Shown here: positions 22,956 to 62,750 of the stretch, piece by piece
Position numbering within the stretch: the first letter of the stretch is position 1
Layout of the letters: every line of letters starts with the position of its first letter
Assembly (NCBI GenBank): GCA_014804795.1
Contig: JAAUZC010000036.1
Location: 1 to 64,000 of the forward strand
DNA from: Lachnospiraceae bacterium
GTDB lineage: Bacteria; Bacillota; Clostridia; Lachnospirales; Lachnospiraceae
Direction of reading: 5' to 3'
DNA: 64,000 nucleotides
Notes under the pieces: model-generated
The model's input: only the letters and a program-made list of their open reading frames with translations
The model's database searches: none
What the model was told of the DNA's origin: nothing
Translations under genes and position numbers: made by a program

Positions 22956-23010
22956 GTAAAGATGAATGAAGAATAAGAAAACAAATAAAGAATGATAAGG
23001 AGTGTTCAAA

Positions 23011-24471
23011 ATGTATGATGTATTGATCGTGGGCTGTGGCATAGTAGGTGCGGCGGCCGCTTATCAGCTCTCAAAATATAAGCTGTCCGTCTGTGTGTGC
23101 GAGAGATATAACGATGTGGCTAACGGTTGTACAAAGGCAAATACGGCGATTCTTCACGCAGGTTTTAACTCTCCGGTGGGGAGTCTGGAAGCAAGACTAA
23201 ATGTACGGGGAATCGAGCTGGCGGCGGAAATATGCGAAAAACTTTCGGTAGAACGAATTCAGATGCCGACGTTTATTATCGCTTATGATACACCGCATGA
23301 ACTTGCATATATTGAAAAGCTGTATGAGCGGGGGGTGGCAAACGGTGTAAAAGGTCTGCGGATCGTAGACCGCGACGAGGCGCTTGCGTTAGAGCCCGGA
23401 CTGAATCCAAATATAAGGGCGGCATTATATGCGCCGGGTTCCGGTATTGTCAATCCGTGGGAATATTGTATTGCGATGGCGGAGACCGCCGTGCGAAACG
23501 GCGCAGAAGTAAAACTGGAAAGCGAAGTAACAGCCATCGAGAAAAAAGATGACTATTTTGTTGTGACGACTTCCACCGGTATTTATGAGGCGCGCTATGT
23601 GGTGAATGCGGCTGGTGCTTTTTCTGCAGATGTTTATGCGCTTGTCGGCGGGAAAGACCTTATACAGAAAAATTATGCGGGGCAGTATTACATCCTTGAT
23701 AAAAGTCAGGGAGAAAAACTGCACTCGATCATATTTCCGTGTCCGGATGAGCGCGGCACGAAGGGGATTTGTGTCACACCGACTGTACATGGAAACCTGC
23801 TCGTGGGACCGGATTTTTATGAAGTACAGGATGGAGACCATGTGGGGACTGATCCGGCAACGTTAGAGAATTTAAAAGAAGCGGGGCACCGCTCTGTGCC
23901 GGGAGTTGATTTCCGCGAGGTTATCCATGAATATGCCGGAGTGCGGCCGAATACGAACTGTCCGGATTTTGTGATCGGAGAAGCACCGGAATGTCCGCAT
24001 TTTATTAATCTGGCGGGCATCAAGTCGCCGGGACTTTCCAGTGCGCCGGCGATTGCGGAGGAGTTGGAACAGATTCTTGCGCAGTGCGGGCTTACTCTTG
24101 AGAAGAAGGATCATTTTACAGATCGCAGGGAGCGGATTATTTTCCGCACGTTAAGCGATGACGAAAAACGGGAAGTGATAAAGAGAGATCCACTGTATGG
24201 TCGTGTGATCTGCCGTTGTGAGACTGTGACGGAGGGTGAGATCGTGGAGGCGATTCACCGTCCTATCGTGCCGCGGACGATCGATGCGATCAAGAGGCGC
24301 TGTAATGCCGGTATGGGAAGATGCCAGGGCGGATTTTGCAGTCCCCGCGTCCATAAGATTCTGGCGAGGGAGCTGGGCGTCAAAGAGGAAGATATTCTGA
24401 TGGATGAACAGGGAACATTTCTTATTACATCCGCACTGAAAGAGGAGGCGGCAGATGAGAATGGAATATGA
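23011..24471 (+). CDS. GlpA-like FAD-dependent dehydrogenase with [2Fe-2S] tail
   Basis: 486 residues from ATG 23011, eight bases after AAGGAG. The N-terminal FAD loop is VGCGIVGAAAAYQL. The DAO fold of glycerol-3-phosphate dehydrogenases covers about 380 residues (LHAGFNSPVGSLEARL, VNAAGAFSADVYALVG, IHEYAGVRPNTNCPDF). The tail has the BFD-like iron-sulfur site, CRCETVTEGEIVEAI plus RRCNAGMGRCQGGFC. Such proteins oxidise glycerol-3-phosphate or a related 2-hydroxy acid. The second subunit (FAD protein) and a DUF1667 protein follow with overlapping starts, an arrangement known in Firmicutes. No glycerol kinase or facilitator gene is nearby. Confidence 0.85.
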   Translation: MYDVLIVGCGIVGAAAAYQLSKYKLSVCVCERYNDVANGCTKANTAILHAGFNSPVGSLEARLNVRGIELAAEICEKLSVERIQMPTFIIAYDTPHELAYIEKLYERGVANGVKGLRIVDRDEALALEPGLNPNIRAALYAPGSGIVNPWEYCIAMAETAVRNGAEVKLESEVTAIEKKDDYFVVTTSTGIYEARYVVNAAGAFSADVYALVGGKDLIQKNYAGQYYILDKSQGEKLHSIIFPCPDERGTKGICVTPTVHGNLLVGPDFYEVQDGDHVGTDPATLENLKEAGHRSVPGVDFREVIHEYAGVRPNTNCPDFVIGEAPECPHFINLAGIKSPGLSSAPAIAEELEQILAQCGLTLEKKDHFTDRRERIIFRTLSDDEKREVIKRDPLYGRVICRCETVTEGEIVEAIHRPIVPRTIDAIKRRCNAGMGRCQGGFCSPRVHKILARELGVKEEDILMDEQGTFLITSALKEEAADENGI

Positions 24472-25735
24472 TGTGATAGTGGTCGGCGGAGGTCCGGCAG
24501 GATTGGCGGCTGCGTGCAGTGCACGCGAGGCGGGAGCAAACGATGTCCTTATTATTGAGCGTGACACCGAGGCAGGCGGCATATTAAATCAGTGTATTCA
24601 TAATGGTTTTGGTCTGCATTATTTCAAAGAGGAACTGACAGGGCCGGAATATGCGGGGCGTTTTATAAAGCTGGCGAAGGAGGCAGGCGTTCAGTTTTTA
24701 TTGGATACCATGGTATTATCGGTGGACGGGCATACTGTTACGGCCTGTAATGCAGCGGATGGTCTGCTTATTCTGACCGGGAAAGCGATCGTACTGGCAA
24801 TGGGCTGCCGGGAGAGAACAAGAGGAGCAATAGCGATTCCGGGCGACCGGCCGGCGGGTATTTTTACAGCGGGAACGGCACAGCGTTATCTCAATATAGA
24901 AGGGTATATGGTAGGACGCCGGGTAGTTATTCTGGGAAGCGGAGATATCGGATTGATCATGGCAAGGCGTATGACTCTGGAGGGTGCAAAGGTGCTTGCC
25001 TGTGTTGAGATCATGCCATACTGCAATGGGTTAAACCGAAATATTGTCCAGTGCTTGAATGATTATGACATTCCGCTCTACCTTTCCCATACCGTTACAA
25101 ATGTGGAGGGGCTGCACCGTGTAGAGCGGGTGACAGTGGCAAAAGTAGATGAAAAGAAAAAGCCCATTCCCGGGACAGAAATTTATTTTGACTGTGATAC
25201 ATTACTGCTGTCGGTGGGACTCATTCCGGAGAATGAGTTGACGAAAGATGCAGGTATTTTGTTGGATAATGCGACAAAGGGCGCGGCGGTTTATGAGAAT
25301 ATGGAGACCCGGAGTGAAGGGATTTTCAGCTGCGGCAATGTTGTCCATGTCCATGATCTGGTGGACTTTGTCACAATGGAAAGCAAAAAAGCCGGAGCCG
25401 CAGCTGCGGCATATGCAGCGGGGGTAAGGTGCCCCAAGGATGGAAAGGTGATTACCATGAAACCCGGGGCGCATGTCACCTATACTGTTCCGCAGGCTGT
25501 CCGAATGCATCATGCAGCAGAAAGCGTGGAACTTTCCTTCCGGGTTGATCAGGTGATCGGCAACAGTGAAATTCAGGTGACCGACGGGGAGAATCTGGTC
25601 TGCCGTTTTGCAAGAAAACAGATGGCACCCGGCGAGATGGAGCATATTACGATACCAGAAGTACTGCTTAAGCGGGTAAGCGGAGAGGAACTCTGTATTT
25701 CCGTGAAGAACTTAAATCAGGAGGAGCGGGTATGA
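24455..25735 (+). CDS. NAD(P)/FAD-dependent oxidoreductase, partner of the GlpA-like protein
   Basis: 426 residues starting at ATG 24455, six bases after GGAGG and overlapping the previous gene by 17 bases. It has an FAD loop VVGGGPAGLAAACSA (about 8-22), a second Rossmann loop VVILGSGDIGLIMARRM (about 154-170) and GIFSCGNVVHVHD near residue 285. The family is the pyridine-nucleotide-disulphide oxidoreductase superfamily without a redox-active CxxC pair; the C-terminus (about 100 residues) is family-specific. It probably moves electrons between the GlpA-like subunit and NAD(P) or a carrier. Confidence 0.85.
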   Translation: MRMEYDVIVVGGGPAGLAAACSAREAGANDVLIIERDTEAGGILNQCIHNGFGLHYFKEELTGPEYAGRFIKLAKEAGVQFLLDTMVLSVDGHTVTACNAADGLLILTGKAIVLAMGCRERTRGAIAIPGDRPAGIFTAGTAQRYLNIEGYMVGRRVVILGSGDIGLIMARRMTLEGAKVLACVEIMPYCNGLNRNIVQCLNDYDIPLYLSHTVTNVEGLHRVERVTVAKVDEKKKPIPGTEIYFDCDTLLLSVGLIPENELTKDAGILLDNATKGAAVYENMETRSEGIFSCGNVVHVHDLVDFVTMESKKAGAAAAAYAAGVRCPKDGKVITMKPGAHVTYTVPQAVRMHHAAESVELSFRVDQVIGNSEIQVTDGENLVCRFARKQMAPGEMEHITIPEVLLKRVSGEELCISVKNLNQEERV

Positions 25736-26079
25736 CGGAATTAATCTGTATTGTTTGTCCAAAGGGTTGTCATTTATGTGTAGACGAGGAAAACGGATAT
25801 GCGGTGAAAGGTAATTCCTGCGACCGCGGCGAAGAATATGGGAAGCGGGAGGTACAAAATCCCGTGCGTGTGCTCACAAGTACCGTGTATGTTGAGGGAG
25901 CAGGAGGGCGGTGCTGCCCGGTAAAGACAAGCGAAGCGATACCGAAGAAAGATATCTTTCGGGCGATGGCGGAATTAAAGGGGTTGACGGTGCAGGCACC
26001 GGTAAAAACCGGTGATGTGATAGTGAAAAATGTCTGTGGCAGCGGTGCGGACTGGATTGCTACGAAGGATATGAAGTAG
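25732..26079 (+). CDS. DUF1667 protein, third component of the GlpA-like system
   Basis: 115 residues whose ATG overlaps the stop of the upstream gene (ATGA). Four Cys near the start (C6, C9, C13, C16 in CIVCPKGCHLC) look like an iron-sulfur or zinc site. GNSCDRGEEYGKREVQNP, then TSTVYVEGAG and PVKTSEAIPK are the conserved DUF1667 blocks. The family occurs beside GlpA-like dehydrogenases in anaerobes; a role as electron carrier is inferred from the Cys pattern and from this gene order. No experimental function is known to me. Confidence 0.85.
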   Translation: MTELICIVCPKGCHLCVDEENGYAVKGNSCDRGEEYGKREVQNPVRVLTSTVYVEGAGGRCCPVKTSEAIPKKDIFRAMAELKGLTVQAPVKTGDVIVKNVCGSGADWIATKDMK

Positions 26080-26098: not shown

Positions 26099-26509
26099 AT
26101 GAATGTACTTGTCATTGATGCGCAGGGCGGAGGGATTGGAAAGCAGCTTGTTTCTTCGATCAGATCAAATTATCCGGAAATTCATATTACTGCTGTAGGA
26201 ACGAATACGACCGCAACGTCTGCCATGCTGAAAGCCGGTGCAGATGAAGCGGCGACCGGGGAAAATGCGGTTGTCGTAAACAGCAGACGAGCGGATGTCA
26301 TTGTCGGACCAATCGGTATTGTCATTGCGGATGCGCTGCTTGGCGAGATAACGCCTCTGATGGCAAAAGCCGTTGCACAAAGTGACGCCAGACGGATTTT
26401 GATACCGGTCAATCACTGCAATAATATTGTGGCAGGCGTGGAAGATTTGAATATGAACCGGTTAATCCGGAGCGCGGTTGAGGAGATTAGCAGGATATGT
26501 GGCGGTTGA
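26099..26509 (+). CDS. DUF3842 protein
   Basis: 136 residues with a Rossmann-like opening, MNVLVIDAQGGGIGKQLV, and the conserved blocks TAVGTNTTATSAMLKAGAD, VGPIGIVIADALLGEITP and LIPVNHCNNIVAGV. The glycine-rich loop suggests a nucleotide or phosphate ligand. DUF3842 has no established function; it is found in Clostridia. It lies 19 bases after DUF1667, apparently as the last gene of that unit, and just before the structured leader of the ABC importer. It may therefore belong with either system. Confidence 0.82.
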   Translation: MNVLVIDAQGGGIGKQLVSSIRSNYPEIHITAVGTNTTATSAMLKAGADEAATGENAVVVNSRRADVIVGPIGIVIADALLGEITPLMAKAVAQSDARRILIPVNHCNNIVAGVEDLNMNRLIRSAVEEISRICGG

Positions 26510-26540
26510 CTTTTTATAGAATATAAGATAGAATAAATCA

Positions 26541-26659
26541 GGTCGCATGAAGCGGCCGTGATTAACGCAGAAGTGTTAAGGTTTGCAGGCAAAAATATGG
26601 ATGGAATCGTATGCCATGAAGGCTCACAAATTCTCTGAAGGGAATCTGTGCGCTTTTTT
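26541..26659 (+). promoter_or_regulatory. Structured leader ending in a terminator (candidate riboswitch)
   Basis: Three stem-loops in a row: GGTCGC/GCGGCC (26541-26557), TTAACGC-AGAA-GTGTTAA (26562-26579), and GGC..ATATG/CGTAT..GCC (26588-26615, with an A-rich bulge). Then a 14-position hairpin with loop TGAA, arms 26622-26635 and 26640-26653, two mismatches, is followed by six T (26654-26659). The GCC at 26613-26615 can pair either with GGC 26588-26590 or with GGC 26621-26623, which would link the third stem to the terminator. The importer ATG is 48 bases downstream. I could not match it to a known riboswitch class. Confidence 0.6.
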
Positions 26660-26707: not shown

Positions 26708-28297
26708 ATGAAAAAAATCTTCGCACTTCTTATAACAGTGATAATGTTATTTGCAGCTACCGCCTGTGGAAGGGCAGAGTCCGGCAGCGATACCGCGTCC
26801 AAAGACAGTGTTGTGATCGCCATTGGTTCCGAGCCCGAAACACTCGACCCGACAAAAGGCTGGGGGCACGGAAATTCTCCGATCGTGCAGAGCACACTTG
26901 TGAAATATACCGCCGATCTGGCTTTTGAAAACGATCTTGCAACAGACTATAAACTCTCTGAGGACGGCCTGACATGGACATTCACGATCCGTGACGATGT
27001 ATTTTTTACGGACGGGGAAAAGCTGACTGCTTCTGATGTCGCTTTCACGTTGGAAACGGCAAAGGCGGCACAGGGATCTGTCGATCTGACCTATATGGAG
27101 AGCGCCGCAGCACAGGATGATACGACAGTTGTTGTTACGCTGTCCAGACCTACTTCTATTTTTCTTAATACCGTTGCCTCCGTCGGTATTGTTCCGGAGC
27201 ATGCTTACAGCAAAGACTATGGCAGAAATCCTATCGGCTCAGGTCCTTATCAATTGGTGGAATGGAAACCGCAGGAGCAGCTCATGTTCACAGCGAACGA
27301 GAATTATTATGGCGGTGCGCCGGGCATTAAAAATGTAACCGTTGTATTCATGTCGGAGGATGCGGCGTTGGCTGCGGTTCAGGCGGGGGAAGTTGATGTT
27401 GCTTATTCCAGTGCAACACTTGGCACAACAGTAATTGACGGTTATCATATAGAAGCGATCACTTCTGCAGACAATCGTGGCTTTACGCTTCCTGTTTGGC
27501 CGGATGAGGGAAAAACTACGGAGAGCGGTGCGCCAATCGGGAATGATGTGACTTGCAATATCGAAATCCGTCAGGCGATGGCCTATGCTATTGATCGTCA
27601 GTCGGTTGTGGACGTTTCGCTGAACGGCTTTGGCAGGCCCGCATACTCGGAAAATGACGGTATGCCGTGGAACAATCCTGAAGTAGTTATCGAAACGGAT
27701 GTGGAGTATGCGAAGAAGCTGCTTGCGGATGCCGGCTGGGCAGATATGGATGGCGACGGTATTGTGGAAAAGAATGGTTTAAGGGCGGAGTTCAATTGTA
27801 TTTATCCGTCCGGGGACTCGGTTCGTCAGGCTGTAGCGATGGCCGCCGCCGAACAGGTGAAAGAAATCGGCATCCAGATTCATGTGGAAGGTGTAAGCTG
27901 GGATGAAATTATGCAGAGAATGTTCTCGGAAGCGGTTATGATGGGTTGGGGTTCTGCAATCCCTAACGAGACATATTATCTATATCGTTCGGAAGGTGCC
28001 CTGTTGGATGATTTTTATAATCCTGAGGGATATAAGAGCGGTGTGACCGACGAATATCTGAATGCGGCGATGGAAGCACTGACAGTGGAAGATGCCAACG
28101 AAAACTGGAAAAACGTGCAGTGGGACGGCACTACCGGTACGGCAATGCGGGGGGAATGTCCCTGGGTATGGATCGTTAATCTGGATCATGTGACGTATGT
28201 GCGCGACGGCCTTTCTATCGGGGAACAGCCGATTCACGGTCATGGACACGGTCTGCCGTTAATTCAGAATCTGCAGGAATGGGCGTGGGCCGAATAA
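26708..28297 (+). CDS. Nickel/peptide-type ABC transporter substrate-binding lipoprotein
   Basis: 529 residues from ATG 26708, seven bases after AAGGAA; the frame extends upstream into the terminator, which cannot be coding. A signal sequence ends in the lipobox ATAC. The body is SBP family 5 (SEPETLDPTKG, YKLSEDGLTWTFTIRDDV, NPIGSGPYQLVEWKP, MAYAIDRQSVV). Near the end the stretch PIHGHGHGLPLIQNLQEW has alternating His-Gly. The family carries peptides, nickel-chelates and other cargo; the His-rich site hints at a metal, but this is inference. It heads an operon of five genes behind a structured leader. Confidence 0.85.
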   Translation: MKKIFALLITVIMLFAATACGRAESGSDTASKDSVVIAIGSEPETLDPTKGWGHGNSPIVQSTLVKYTADLAFENDLATDYKLSEDGLTWTFTIRDDVFFTDGEKLTASDVAFTLETAKAAQGSVDLTYMESAAAQDDTTVVVTLSRPTSIFLNTVASVGIVPEHAYSKDYGRNPIGSGPYQLVEWKPQEQLMFTANENYYGGAPGIKNVTVVFMSEDAALAAVQAGEVDVAYSSATLGTTVIDGYHIEAITSADNRGFTLPVWPDEGKTTESGAPIGNDVTCNIEIRQAMAYAIDRQSVVDVSLNGFGRPAYSENDGMPWNNPEVVIETDVEYAKKLLADAGWADMDGDGIVEKNGLRAEFNCIYPSGDSVRQAVAMAAAEQVKEIGIQIHVEGVSWDEIMQRMFSEAVMMGWGSAIPNETYYLYRSEGALLDDFYNPEGYKSGVTDEYLNAAMEALTVEDANENWKNVQWDGTTGTAMRGECPWVWIVNLDHVTYVRDGLSIGEQPIHGHGHGLPLIQNLQEWAWAE

Positions 28298-28325
28298 TTT
28301 GGATAGAAAGGGCATGGTTATTATT

Positions 28326-29321
28326 ATGAAAGGGACAGGCGGGCGGCTTGTATGTATTTTGGTAAAAAACAGTATAAAAATCATATCACTTCTGTTTGCC
28401 GTGAGTGCAGTATCGTTTGTGCTTGTGAGTGCGTCGCCTGTTGACCCCGTCGGGCAGTATATTCTGGGGCTGGGCACGGCAGTTTCGCCGCAGCAGCGTG
28501 TTGAAATAGAAAATTACTGGGGAGTGAACGAACCGCCCATGGAACGGTATTTGGGCTGGCTTTCGGAACTTTTGCGGGGCAATCTCGGGGAGTCGGCTCT
28601 CTACCGCAGACCCGTTGCGGATATCATCGGGGAGCGGTTTGTCAATTCTATTGCGTTGATGCTTTGTGCATGGCTGCTTTCCGGGGTGATCGGCTTTGGA
28701 CTGGGCTGCATTATGGGAATGTATCAGGGGAAACTGCCGGACAGAATGTTGAAAAAGGTTTGCTATATTCTTAGTTCAACGCCGACATTCTGGCTGGGAC
28801 TTGTCTTTCTGTTACTATTTTCCGTCCGGTTAAAATGGTTTCCGATCGGTTTCTCCGGACCCATCGGCGTGGCGGACAGTGATGTGACGATATGGCAGAA
28901 ACTTCATCACCTGATATTACCGGCATTTACATTGAGCCTTATGTCTTTTGCGGGAATTGCTCTGCACACCCGCGGGAAACTGATAGATGTGTTAAACAGT
29001 GAATACGTATTGTTTGCAAAAGCGCGGGGGGAGGGGAAATGGACGATCCTGCGCCGTCATGGGCTGCGGAATATTGTTCTTCCTGCGTTGACATTGCAGT
29101 TCGCGTCTTTTGCGGAATTATTCGGCGGTTCGGTCGTGGCGGAAAATGTATTCAGTTATCCGGGACTTGGCAGTGCGGTATCTGCGGCCGGGCTGAACTG
29201 CGATGTACCGCTGTTGCTTGGCATAACACTGTTTTCCGCTCTGTTTGTCTGTGTCGGCAATATGATCGCTGATCTGCTCTACGGGATTGTTGATCCGCAG
29301 ATCCGGGAGGTGAATCAATGA
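28326..29321 (+). CDS. ABC transporter permease (NikB/DppB type)
   Basis: 331 residues from ATG 28326; ATG 28314 is also possible, since the GAAAGGG site is one base from 28314 and thirteen from 28326. Six hydrophobic segments are typical of BPD_transp_1 permeases. The N-terminal segment, LVSASPVDPVG, the outer region EPPMERYLGWLSELLRGNLG, and the coupling loop EYVLFAKARGEGKWTILRRH (about residue 229) are standard for the DppB/NikB family. Its stop overlaps the next gene (ATGA). Confidence 0.85.
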   Translation: MKGTGGRLVCILVKNSIKIISLLFAVSAVSFVLVSASPVDPVGQYILGLGTAVSPQQRVEIENYWGVNEPPMERYLGWLSELLRGNLGESALYRRPVADIIGERFVNSIALMLCAWLLSGVIGFGLGCIMGMYQGKLPDRMLKKVCYILSSTPTFWLGLVFLLLFSVRLKWFPIGFSGPIGVADSDVTIWQKLHHLILPAFTLSLMSFAGIALHTRGKLIDVLNSEYVLFAKARGEGKWTILRRHGLRNIVLPALTLQFASFAELFGGSVVAENVFSYPGLGSAVSAAGLNCDVPLLLGITLFSALFVCVGNMIADLLYGIVDPQIREVNQ

Positions 29322-30142
29322 AGAAGATGAACCGCCGCACAAAAGTTGTGATCCTGACGGCTGTCATGGCAGTCGTGTTGATAACGATTTATATGATTGG
29401 CATTTTTATGCCGGAAGATGCCGTGACAGGCAGTTTTTTGAATGCAAAGAGACCGCCCTCATGGGCGCAGCCTTTTGGTACGGACGCTTTGGGGCGCGAT
29501 CTGTTTCTGCGTACGCTCAAAGGCCTGTCAGTCAGCATGACAGTGGGGATTGCGGCGTCTCTGATCAGCGCGGTGATTGCTGTGATCGTGGGTATTGCCG
29601 CGGCGACAGGCTCCAAATGGGTGGACGGTTTTATCAACTGGATCATCGATCTTGTGATGAGTGTTCCTCATACGATCCTCGTGATTTTGATCTCTTTTGT
29701 TATGGGACGGGGGATGAAAGGCCTTCTCATCGGTATTGCGGCAACGCACTGGTGCTCTCTGGCAAGACTGATCAGGGGAGAAGTTCTTAAACTCCGCGGT
29801 CAGCAGTATATAGCGGTATCCCGCAAGCTGGGAAAATCAAGCAAGTGGATTCTCGTGCACCATCTGCTGCCGCATTTGGCGCCGCAGTTTTTGGTAGGAT
29901 TGATTCTTCTGTTTCCGCATGCGATCCTCCATGAAGCATCCATATCTTTTCTCGGCTTCGGCCTGTCGCCGGAGCAGCCTGCAATCGGTATCATTCTGTC
30001 GGAAAGCATGCGGTATCTCTCAGCGGGAATGTGGTGGCCCGCGGTTTTGCCGGGATTGACACTTGTGTTGATCGTATTGATGATGGACAAGCTGGGGGAT
30101 AATCTGCGTATGATTTTGAATCCGCACAGCGCGCAGGAATAA
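29318..30142 (+). CDS. ABC transporter permease (NikC/DppC type)
   Basis: 274 residues, five or six membrane segments. PFGTDALGRDLFLRTLKG near residue 52 is the hallmark of DppC/NikC proteins, followed by the coupling loop QQYIAVSRKLGKSSKWILVH (about 155-174) and ASISFLGFGLSPEQPAIG. Together with the preceding permease it forms the channel. Start overlaps the previous stop by four bases. The next gene begins 11 bases after its stop. Confidence 0.9.
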   Translation: MKKMNRRTKVVILTAVMAVVLITIYMIGIFMPEDAVTGSFLNAKRPPSWAQPFGTDALGRDLFLRTLKGLSVSMTVGIAASLISAVIAVIVGIAAATGSKWVDGFINWIIDLVMSVPHTILVILISFVMGRGMKGLLIGIAATHWCSLARLIRGEVLKLRGQQYIAVSRKLGKSSKWILVHHLLPHLAPQFLVGLILLFPHAILHEASISFLGFGLSPEQPAIGIILSESMRYLSAGMWWPAVLPGLTLVLIVLMMDKLGDNLRMILNPHSAQE

Positions 30143-30153
30143 AGGGGGCTTCG

Positions 30154-31089
30154 ATGAAACAAAAAGAGGATTCTTTACTTGAAATACATGATCTGTCGGT
30201 TTCTTTTCGCATGTATGACCATGGACTGGAACAAACCGATCTACAGGTTATTTCCAATCTTTATCTGACAGTATACCCCGGTGAGATCGTGGCCGTCGCA
30301 GGTTCCTCCGGTTCCGGTAAAAGTCTGCTTGCTTCTGCGATCCTCGGCATTCTGCCCGGCAATGCTTCTTTGAGAGGGCATCTGCATTATAAGGGAGAGG
30401 AGCTGACACCCAGGCGGCAGAAATACCTTCGGGGGAGTGAGATCGCACTGGTTCCGCAGTCGGTTTCCTATCTTGATCCGTTGATGAAAATCGGCGTGCA
30501 GGCGGACGGACATAAAAAGCCGTATCCGACTGAAAAACGGAGAAGCGTTTTCAAACGGTTGGATTTGCCGGATAAAACAGAACAATTATTTCCGTTCCAG
30601 CTTTCCGGCGGGATGGCAAGGCGCGTATTGGTGGGAGCCGCATTGATCACCGATGCGCAGCTCGTCATTGCGGATGAACCTACCCCCGGGATGAGCCTGG
30701 AACAGGCGATGGAAGCGCTGCAGATGTTCCGCGAGATGGCGGATGAGGGGAAAGCGGTTATTCTGATCACCCATGATATTGATCTGGCGGTTGAGTTTGC
30801 AGACAGGGTTGCCGTATTTTATGCCGGCACTACGGTGGAAACAGCACCGGCGGCCGATTTTAAAAATGGTCCGGATTCGCTGCGCCATCCTTATTCCAAA
30901 GCTTTGTGGCGCGCTCTGCCGCAGAACGGGTTTTGGCCGATTCCCGGATTTCAGCCTTATGCCGGTAATCTTCCGAAAGGATGTCTGTTTGCCCCGCGCT
31001 GTCCATATAAGACCGCCGAGTGTGAGAGGGAACTTCCTTCCGTAAAAGAAGTGCGCGGCGGAGAAGTGAGGTGCTGCCATGCCACTTGA
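30154..31089 (+). CDS. ABC transporter ATPase (NikD/DppD type)
   Basis: 311 residues. Walker A is GSSGSGKSLLA (about 49-59), Walker B is LVIADEPTPGM, and the H-loop is LITHDID. The signature reads LSGGMARR, a slightly unusual form of LSGGQ. The C-terminal oligopeptide-transporter extension is present, with three Cys (CLFAPRCPYKTAEC) as in DppD/OppD proteins, where related motifs bind an iron-sulfur cluster. It hydrolyses ATP to drive the importer. Overlaps the next gene by 11 bases. Confidence 0.9.
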   Translation: MKQKEDSLLEIHDLSVSFRMYDHGLEQTDLQVISNLYLTVYPGEIVAVAGSSGSGKSLLASAILGILPGNASLRGHLHYKGEELTPRRQKYLRGSEIALVPQSVSYLDPLMKIGVQADGHKKPYPTEKRRSVFKRLDLPDKTEQLFPFQLSGGMARRVLVGAALITDAQLVIADEPTPGMSLEQAMEALQMFREMADEGKAVILITHDIDLAVEFADRVAVFYAGTTVETAPAADFKNGPDSLRHPYSKALWRALPQNGFWPIPGFQPYAGNLPKGCLFAPRCPYKTAECERELPSVKEVRGGEVRCCHAT

Positions 31090-31696
31090 AGCAAAAAATG
31101 TCTACTTTCGCTATGATAAAAAACAACCCTGGGTGCTGGAAGACAGAAGCCTGATATTGCATAGAGGAGAGAGGCTGGCGTTGTCCGCACCGAGCGGTTA
31201 CGGGAAAACAACGTTGGCGATGCTGCTTGCGGGATATCTGAAACCGACACAAGGCAGAATCCTGTTAGATGATAAACCGCTGCCGCAAAAAGGCGTCTGT
31301 CCGGTTCAACTGATTTATCAGCATCCGGAGAAGGCGATCAATCCGCGGTGGCGGCTGAGACGTGTGCTGGAAGAAAGCGGGGAGCTGCGGGAAGAGATGC
31401 TGGATGCTCTGGGGATCGAACGAGCCTGGCTGAATCGATTTCCGGGGGAATTGTCCGGCGGTGAACTGCAGAGATTTTGCGTGGCGAGAGCACTGTCCTG
31501 CGGTGCAGAGTATCTGATCTGCGATGAGATTAGCACCATGCTGGATGCGATCACGCAGGCACAGATCTGGAATGCGGTTTTAAAGGAAGCGGATAAACAT
31601 AATATGGGAATGATTGCGGTCACGCACAATAAGCATCTCGCCGGGAGAATCGCGACGAGGATTGTGGATTTGACAGACGGGAAACTCAGGTTATAA
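31079..31696 (+). CDS. ABC transporter ATPase (NikE type, short)
   Basis: 205 residues, shorter than the usual 260-330 because it has no C-terminal extension. Walker A is PSGYGKTTLA (about 39-48), the signature LSGGELQR, Walker B EYLICDEIS and the H-loop VTHNKH. It would pair with the ATPase just upstream, whose gene it overlaps. The last gene of the importer operon; recD2 starts 30 bases later. NikE-like proteins of nickel importers are similarly compact, in mild support of that reading. Confidence 0.87.
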   Translation: MPLEAKNVYFRYDKKQPWVLEDRSLILHRGERLALSAPSGYGKTTLAMLLAGYLKPTQGRILLDDKPLPQKGVCPVQLIYQHPEKAINPRWRLRRVLEESGELREEMLDALGIERAWLNRFPGELSGGELQRFCVARALSCGAEYLICDEISTMLDAITQAQIWNAVLKEADKHNMGMIAVTHNKHLAGRIATRIVDLTDGKLRL

Positions 31697-61805: not shown

Positions 61806-62750
61806 ATGAAATTTATTAAAGACTTTAAAGAGGGAGATAAAATATTTGATATTTATCTCTGCAAACATAAAATATCGGCGGTGACGAAGAATGGAAAGGC
61901 TTATGAGACAGCAATACTGCAGGATAAGACCGGTACCATCGATGCAAAAATATGGGATCCCAACAACGCAGGCATCGGCGATTTTGAGGCGATGGACTAT
62001 GTGGAGATCTACGGGGATGTCAACAATTTTCAGGGAACACTGCAGCTCAATGTGAAGCGCGCCCGCTATGCAAAGCAGGGGGAGTACGATCCGAAAAGCT
62101 ATCTGCCGGTGAGCGCCTATAATATAGAAGATATGTACGGTGAAGTGATGCAGTACATAAAGGGAATCGCCAATCCGTATCTGCAGAAGCTGTGTCAGAA
62201 GATCTTTGTGGAAGACAAGGAATTTGCGGAAAAATTTAAAAGTTCCTCAGCGGCCAAATCCGTACATCATGGTTTTATGGGCGGGCTTTTGGAGCATACG
62301 TTGAGTGTGGTAAAGCTTTGTGATTTTTACTGCACAAGATATAAAAAATTGAATAAGGATTTATTAATTACGGCGGCTCTCTGCCACGATATCGGAAAGG
62401 TGAAAGAATTGTCTGCATTTCCGATGAATGATTATACGGATGACGGGAATTTTCTCGGACATATTGTGATCGGAACGGAGATGGTGGGAATGAAGATCAG
62501 GGAAATAGACGGTTTTCCTGAAAGGCTTGCCATGGAACTGAAACATTGTATTTTATCCCATCACGGGGAATTTGAGTTTGGATCTCCGAAAAAACCGGCT
62601 ATTATTGAAGCGGTGGCGCTTAACTTTGCGGATAATACGGATGCGAAGCTGGAGACTTTTACGGAATTACTGAATAATGCATCGGATAAAGGGTGGCTTG
62701 GATTTAACAGACTGTTGGATTCCAATGTGACGGCGACGCGGATGGAGTAA
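61806..62750 (+). CDS. YhaM-like 3'-5' exoribonuclease (OB + HD domains)
   Basis: 314 residues from ATG 61806, six bases after GGAGG. The N-terminal OB fold (about 1-120: DGKTAYETAILQ-like core KNGKAYETAILQDKTGTID) is followed by a HD phosphohydrolase domain with VHHGFMGGLLEHTLSVVKL, ALCHDIGKVKEL and HIVIGTEMVG, H...HD...D metal ligands. YhaM in Bacillus trims single-stranded RNA or DNA from the 3' end. The length matches the 314-residue Bacillus protein. It follows the HtrA-like gene by 34 bases. Confidence 0.88.
   Translation: MKFIKDFKEGDKIFDIYLCKHKISAVTKNGKAYETAILQDKTGTIDAKIWDPNNAGIGDFEAMDYVEIYGDVNNFQGTLQLNVKRARYAKQGEYDPKSYLPVSAYNIEDMYGEVMQYIKGIANPYLQKLCQKIFVEDKEFAEKFKSSSAAKSVHHGFMGGLLEHTLSVVKLCDFYCTRYKKLNKDLLITAALCHDIGKVKELSAFPMNDYTDDGNFLGHIVIGTEMVGMKIREIDGFPERLAMELKHCILSHHGEFEFGSPKKPAIIEAVALNFADNTDAKLETFTELLNNASDKGWLGFNRLLDSNVTATRME

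Follow-up and report, generated by a model that had tools for sequence, protein, structure and literature searches.

Antiterminators of the BglG, SacY and LicT type act by stabilizing an antiterminator hairpin that is exclusive with a terminator, and the RNA that they recognize (RAT) is a single longer hairpin that measures about 30 nt and contains internal loops. For nickel, two kinds of regulator are familiar. The NiCo riboswitch controls mainly efflux genes, and LarR of Lactiplantibacillus plantarum is a DNA-binding activator of the Crp/Fnr type that governs the genes for the nickel-pincer cofactor together with nickel uptake. The RNA targets of the ANTAR proteins EutV, NasR and AmiR are dual hexaloop hairpins with A1 and G4, the second of which overlaps the 5' arm of a terminator (PMC3369931, PMC8934654), and the target sequence in eut is AGCAANGRRGCUY (PMC3369931).

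The leader described here lies in a window of 64,000 nucleotides (contig JAAUZC010000036.1, positions 1 to 64,000) from the 3.45-Mb genome of a Lachnospiraceae bacterium (assembly GCA_014804795.1), most of whose family-level relatives and named homologues belong to the Lachnospiraceae and related Clostridia. It spans 119 nt (26541-26659) and is comprised of two perfect hairpins, H1 and H2, a weak hairpin, H3, and an intrinsic terminator (Table 1). An initial annotation of the window had marked these positions as a structured leader, with sequence and coordinates that agree with ours, and had counted three stem-loops in it. Two of these are the perfect helices H1 and H2, while the third, probably 26588-26615, falls in the variable linker and is taken as not conserved, a judgment made from the alignments without a separate count of pairs. 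From sequence comparison, the leader is probably a transcription attenuator that is off by default and answers to a protein, with DUF3842, the product of the adjoining upstream gene, as the most likely candidate for that protein.

Table 1. Features of the leader locus, with positions in the window
Feature	Position	Strand	Basis or remark
Promoter, sigma-A-type, TTGACT-17-TAGAAT	26506..26534	+	promoter scan; also found 5' of H1 in homologues
Hairpin H1, 6 bp, GGUCGC-AUGAA-GCGGCC	26541..26557	+	fold; family loop consensus ANGAA
Hairpin H2, 7 bp, UUAACGC-AGAA-GUGUUAA	26562..26579	+	fold; 4 nt past H1
Linker, variable in length and sequence	26580..26608	+	family alignments
Hairpin H3, antiterminator, loop AUGAA 26616-26620	26609..26627	+	fold and covariation outside the model
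Intrinsic terminator with U6	26618..26659	+	fold; 5' arm shared with the 3' arm of H3
nikA-like substrate-binding lipoprotein	26708..28297	+	SBP_bac_5
nikB-like permease	28299..29321	+	homology
nikC-like permease	29318..30142	+	homology
nikD-like ATPase	30154..31089	+	homology
nikE-like ATPase	31079..31696	+	homology
DUF3842 protein, 136 aa, proposed trans-acting partner	26099..26509	+	PF12953, 1e-52

The fold of H1 has an energy of -8.9 kcal/mol and a z score of -4.6, the corresponding z score of H2 is -7.7, and none of 200 shuffles folds as stably as the full leader (z -3.05). The terminator, whose position 48 nt ahead of a five-gene importer (Nik/Opp type) the initial annotation had given correctly, has its stem at 26618-26657 and its six T residues at 26654-26659, and the ATG of the importer follows at 26708. 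A simple terminator scan passed over it because the stem has bulges, and its identification rests on folding and on the family alignment. The promoter, which was absent from the initial annotation, ends 6 nt ahead of H1, and the importer mRNA should accordingly begin with the leader. The core of H3 is formed by GCC at 26613-26615 paired with GGC at 26621-26623, and since the 3' arm of H3 is also the 5' arm of the terminator, H3 is the antiterminator; here the terminator is worth about -14 kcal/mol and H3 about -3 to -4 kcal/mol. That the same GCC can pair with either of two GGC sites had been proposed before. Both pairings are indeed possible, but only the site at 26621-26623 is conserved, and the one at 26588-26590 is not. 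A single-sequence fold prefers the latter, which is probably the third stem of the initial annotation.

An AUG in the H1 loop opens a short reading frame in the window, AUG-AAG-CGG-CCG-UGA (MKRP and a stop), and could in principle make the leader an attenuator that works through a leader peptide. The likelihood of this is practically negligible given that the gap between the promoter and H1 is too small for a ribosome-binding site and that only 12 of 63 leaders have an AUG in the H1 loop; the MKRP frame is not conserved, which refutes the idea.

Orthologous loci, 80 in all, were fetched with the binding protein of the importer as the query, and a first alignment was made of 12 leaders that lie directly 5' of nikA, the one in the window and 11 others. 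Both sides have changed in 20 of the 29 base pairs of this alignment, and 93.9% of its cells pair, versus at most 53% in slid controls. Of 397 family genomes, 49 gave a match at E <= 0.01 to a covariance model, R1, that was built from those 12 nikA leaders only; some of the weakest of these matches are due to chance. At many other loci R1 places the leader about 3 kb 5' of nikA, ahead of larE-larB-larC-nikABCDE. Lutispora thermophila DSM 19022 (L016) has its larEBC-nik genes downstream of such a leader. The compensatory changes that the initial annotation had proposed to look for across homologous importer leaders are seen in 27 of the 29 pairs in an alignment of 63 sequences, with a covariation score of 0.603 versus 0.272 +/- 0.009 for shuffled and <= 0.14 for slid alignments; fitting of the sequences to the model favors H1, H2 and the terminator in this alignment. 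H3, which lies outside the model, covaries as well (0.378 versus 0.257 +/- 0.014). That a conserved cis-regulatory RNA exists here is almost certain. A weak match elsewhere in the window (62231-62389, minus strand) was set aside as chance because it lies antisense within a coding gene, and weak model matches at L141, L148 and L149 (the end of a carbamate kinase gene, an XdhA-type gene and a tRNA region) were judged false.

These data also bear on a simpler reading, in which the DUF3842 gene upstream ends in a terminator and the other hairpins arose by chance. H1 starts just 31 nt past the stop codon of that gene, and a terminator there would be unsurprising. Chance hairpins would not be expected to covary in 63 homologues and to keep their loops, however, and a promoter fixed 5' of H1 puts the terminator inside the next transcript. 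The leader moreover recurs before a coherent regulon. We consider this reading extremely improbable, and the covariation and regulon data together refute it.

Across the family, the H1 loop has five nucleotides with the consensus ANGAA (AGGAA in 25, AUGAA in 12 and ACGAA in 7 of 63 leaders) and usually has GC closing pairs, the H2 loop is the four-nucleotide AGAA in 47 of 63 leaders, and the H3 loop is NNGAA. H1 and H2 stand 2-5 nt apart, with a spacer of 4 nt in 41 of 63 leaders, and the linker from H2 to the terminator varies from 8 to 162 nt. One short homologue (L021) has H1, H3 and the terminator only. The median terminator of the family has -19.9 kcal/mol and H3 has -3.2 kcal/mol; the terminator is part of the minimum-energy fold in 57 of 63 leaders, and of 63 transcripts cut before its 3' arm, 48 have H3, or a local hairpin equivalent to it, in the fold of lowest energy. 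The antiterminator and the terminator are mutually exclusive and both are conserved, as is characteristic of a protein-dependent antiterminator. Of 62 leaders, 44 have a promoter 5' of H1, in most cases at a distance of 6 nt; among control sequences the rate is 3.2%. In several leaders that lack one, DUF3842 is so close on the 5' side that the two probably share a transcript, with the leader as an interruption in it. Leaders of compact or divergent form, which have a terminator and hairpins with GAA loops, were also seen 5' of nikA at L009, L021, L085, L088 and L089, of which L088 sits on a contig labeled Anaerolineaceae, and from these the element may reach beyond the Clostridia.

An important question is whether such an RNA senses a ligand by itself. 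The initial annotation had read the leader as a transcription-terminating riboswitch, and a true riboswitch, in which the tandem hairpins bind nickel ion, the nickel-pincer nucleotide or a precursor and thereby shift the balance between H3 and the terminator, would agree with the exclusive terminator and antiterminator, the part of that reading that held, and with a regulon that is coherent for a metal or cofactor. An enzymatic role of DUF3842 in making or removing the ligand would even account for its co-occurrence with the leader. We nevertheless hold a riboswitch to be unlikely. The leader has no junction, pseudoknot or conserved aptamer-like core, its conservation consists of three copies of one small loop, its linker ranges over the lengths given above, and it tracks DUF3842. 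Rfam searches at the gathering threshold and at E <= 10, including the NiCo family, returned no relevant match, and the initial annotation had likewise seen no match to the features of known riboswitch families. The two outcomes that had been named in advance as counting against the leader, lack of helix conservation and membership of a known Rfam family, were both looked for, and neither occurred. A small loop that occurs three times, twice at a short fixed spacing and once where it would control the terminator, and that has no conserved core between its copies, points to the design of a protein-bound antiterminator.

The genes behind the leader give an indication of what it controls. Trained on nik leaders alone, R1 finds leaders ahead of larE-larB, larB-cbiM, FecCD transporters, ECF S-components and a two-gene membrane pair that often has larB or larC downstream of it, all of them genes that were new to the model. 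LarE and LarB were assigned by curated models and LarC by reading. Because the same leader precedes larE, larB and larC as well as nickel- and cobalt-type transporters, the cargo of the importer in the window is most likely nickel. The initial annotation had called the importer metal/peptide-type; the metal-type assignment stands through this gene context, although the binding protein matches NikA-type curated models well below all nickel-equivalog cut-offs. The window genome has its own larB, larC and larE on another contig (G000:C53:67-71 kb; L181:3139-6452), where larB and larE were recognized by homology search and larC from its translation, and that region has no recognizable copy of the leader.

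Several of the loci carry further genes and elements of note. The membrane pair (MACF..VPAAEAVVTT, about 140 aa, and MTLL..FAA, about 105 aa, with no Pfam match) separates the leader from larB, larC or larE at L127, L128, L131, L135, L142, L144, L146, L147, L239, L240 and L248, and its members are candidate new nickel uptake proteins. At L243, L244, L250 and L251, which belong to other families of the class, the order is DUF3842, leader, ECF S-component and a protein of about 315 aa whose C-terminal half is P-loop kinase-like. Here the leader heads an operon of another type, and no lar or nik gene occurs within the 1.5 kb fetched for such ECF S-component operons. At L125 (G354), genes that resemble parts of IS66-type transposases begin about 200 nt past a leader that forms a well-conserved pair with DUF3842, and the leader there has thus been cut off from its presumed target. 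A different, conserved GC-rich element (GCCCCGGCUGGCUGGCACCAAACCGGGGC ... GCCGACC ... AAAGGC) stands just 5' of nikA in Oscillospiraceae-type loci (L020, L028, L037, L045, L051, L053, L064, L065, L070, L077 and L083); it has no Rfam match in the nine loci scanned. Many nikA promoters (L037, L045, L051, L053, L063-L068 and L070-L087) have a C-tract/G-tract element near the -35 region, for example CCCCCCGGGGGGCTT, that resembles an operator and might be the site of a metal sensor.

What protein might act on the leader? Of 76 leader loci, 46 have the DUF3842 gene directly 5' of the leader and in the same orientation, and none has it downstream. A DUF3842 gene is present in each of the 28 family genomes whose leader match is strong (E <= 5e-5), versus 93 of 397 overall (p 6e-20), and it must be kept in mind that the sampled genomes are related, which makes this and the other co-occurrence tests partly non-independent. 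A further 22 of 23 distinct leader genomes have DUF3842 without linkage to the leader, and one genome that is 99% complete (G601) has the leader and lacks DUF3842. Among the 55 testable genomes that carry an orthologue of the importer, the leader (E <= 0.01) precedes it in 16 of 26 that have DUF3842 and in 0 of 29 that do not (Fisher p 2e-7), or in 16 of 25 versus 0 of 25 when short upstream regions are left out. DUF3842 therefore tracks the RNA more closely than it tracks the transporter or the pathway. The relation is not reciprocal, as many genomes with DUF3842 have no strong leader match and most of the best-scoring DUF3842 genes have no leader adjoining them. The family accordingly has other roles, or targets that escaped our search, and the link is one of genome and subfamily, not of universal adjacency. 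In the window, a likely operon just 5' of the DUF3842 gene (23002-26079) encodes a protein like type 2 glycerol-3-phosphate oxidase, a second FAD-dependent oxidoreductase and a 115-aa protein that, by eye, we take to be DUF1667-like.

Alternatively, the leader may be the target of some other RNA-binding protein, DUF3842 being a co-inherited gene of the pathway. DUF3842 has no recognized RNA-binding domain or known RNA-binding fold, and our comparison of co-occurrence covered two protein families, DUF3842 and ANTAR. Yet the protein follows the leader and not the transporter in the test above, accompanies the leader across differing downstream genes, and lies outside the controlled operon in every case, and we find this alternative quite unlikely. 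The structure model of DUF3842 is of low confidence overall (pLDDT 61) with a confident Rossmann-like N-terminal half, and it has no significant relative in the PDB. Cys 107 is invariant in 19 aligned leader-linked proteins and would suit a sensor of a metal or a nucleotide, which is speculation. By association, the chance that DUF3842 is the direct partner of the leader appears better than even. The literature that we searched, outside which most subscription papers fall, holds nothing on the leader or on DUF3842.

The other candidate is the ANTAR protein linked to glnA, for which the hairpins would be an unrecognized target. Small tandem hairpins, the second arm of which overlaps a terminator, follow the same logic; the 13-nt eut sequence resembles GC-ANGAA-GC, at a distance of about one loop base; and the window genome has one ANTAR gene. 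That gene adjoins glnA, though, and the loops of the leader have five and four nucleotides instead of being hexaloops with A1 and G4. Presence of ANTAR is independent of the leader (25 of 28 versus 323 of 369 genomes, p = 1; 348 of 397 family genomes overall), and the leader genomes G146, G207 and G402 have no ANTAR match. Binding by this protein is very improbable. At its own locus (G000:C53; L118:5400-7489), the ANTAR gene, which is the sole one in the genome, comes after glnA, and the glnA leader has a terminator-like hairpin with the loop AUGGG close to its promoter.

With DUF3842 as the favored partner, the leader may operate as follows. RNA polymerase would start at or beside H1, and H1, H2 and H3 would be repeats of one recognition hairpin with an (N)NGAA loop. 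When no protein is bound, the terminator would displace the weak H3 and transcription would stop ahead of nikA. A trans-acting protein would load on H1 and H2 and then on H3, and with H3 held in place the terminator could not form and the operon would be transcribed. The protein would be DUF3842, which, with a predicted Rossmann-like, nucleotide-binding N-terminal half, might report the state of the nickel or nickel-pincer cofactor pathway. We infer from sequence the direct binding of DUF3842 to RNA, the order of binding, its sign (antitermination as opposed to assisted termination), the signal and the nickel cargo. In our estimate the odds are about even that DUF3842 and the GAA-hairpin leader make up a new class of sensor-antiterminator in the Clostridia, one that senses nickel or nickel-pincer/nicotinate nucleotide status and, by binding of the protein to the repeated hairpins, switches on nickel uptake and the synthesis of the nickel-pincer cofactor, as well as vitamin-type uptake by ECF transporters in some families.

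If this is the case, gut Clostridia have control at the RNA level of nickel and of the nickel-pincer cofactor of lactate racemase-type enzymes, and one more protein family joins the short list of antiterminators. DUF3842 is assigned a testable function. The covariance model finds the regulon by itself, and the leader would help in naming the substrates of several uncharacterized transporters.

The leader resembles the ANTAR targets in its closely spaced pair of small hairpins, whose loops are conserved, in the overlap of a hairpin with the 5' arm of the terminator, and in a proposed read-through that depends on a protein. In most leaders, however, the overlapping hairpin is H3 and not H2, so that there are three hairpins, the last of them far from the first pair; the short loops carry GAA; and the leader has no association with ANTAR, the window genome having no dedicated ANTAR protein. 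The ANTAR proteins also serve mainly nitrogen genes, whereas the regulon of the leader is one of nickel and lar genes. With the BglG-type systems the leader would share an antiterminator hairpin that a protein stabilizes against a terminator. Compared with RAT, the leader is set apart by the form of its hairpins, which are simple and repeated, and DUF3842 has no BglG-type domain. Like the NiCo riboswitch, the leader would tie RNA-level control to nickel and cobalt, but it lacks the four-helix junction and any match to that family, and its genes are for uptake and cofactor synthesis instead of efflux. Like LarR, it spans nickel-pincer cofactor genes and nickel uptake, with control predicted at the level of RNA instead of DNA. 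The leader is probably a new RNA family with a probable new protein partner, within the established scheme of protein-dependent attenuation.
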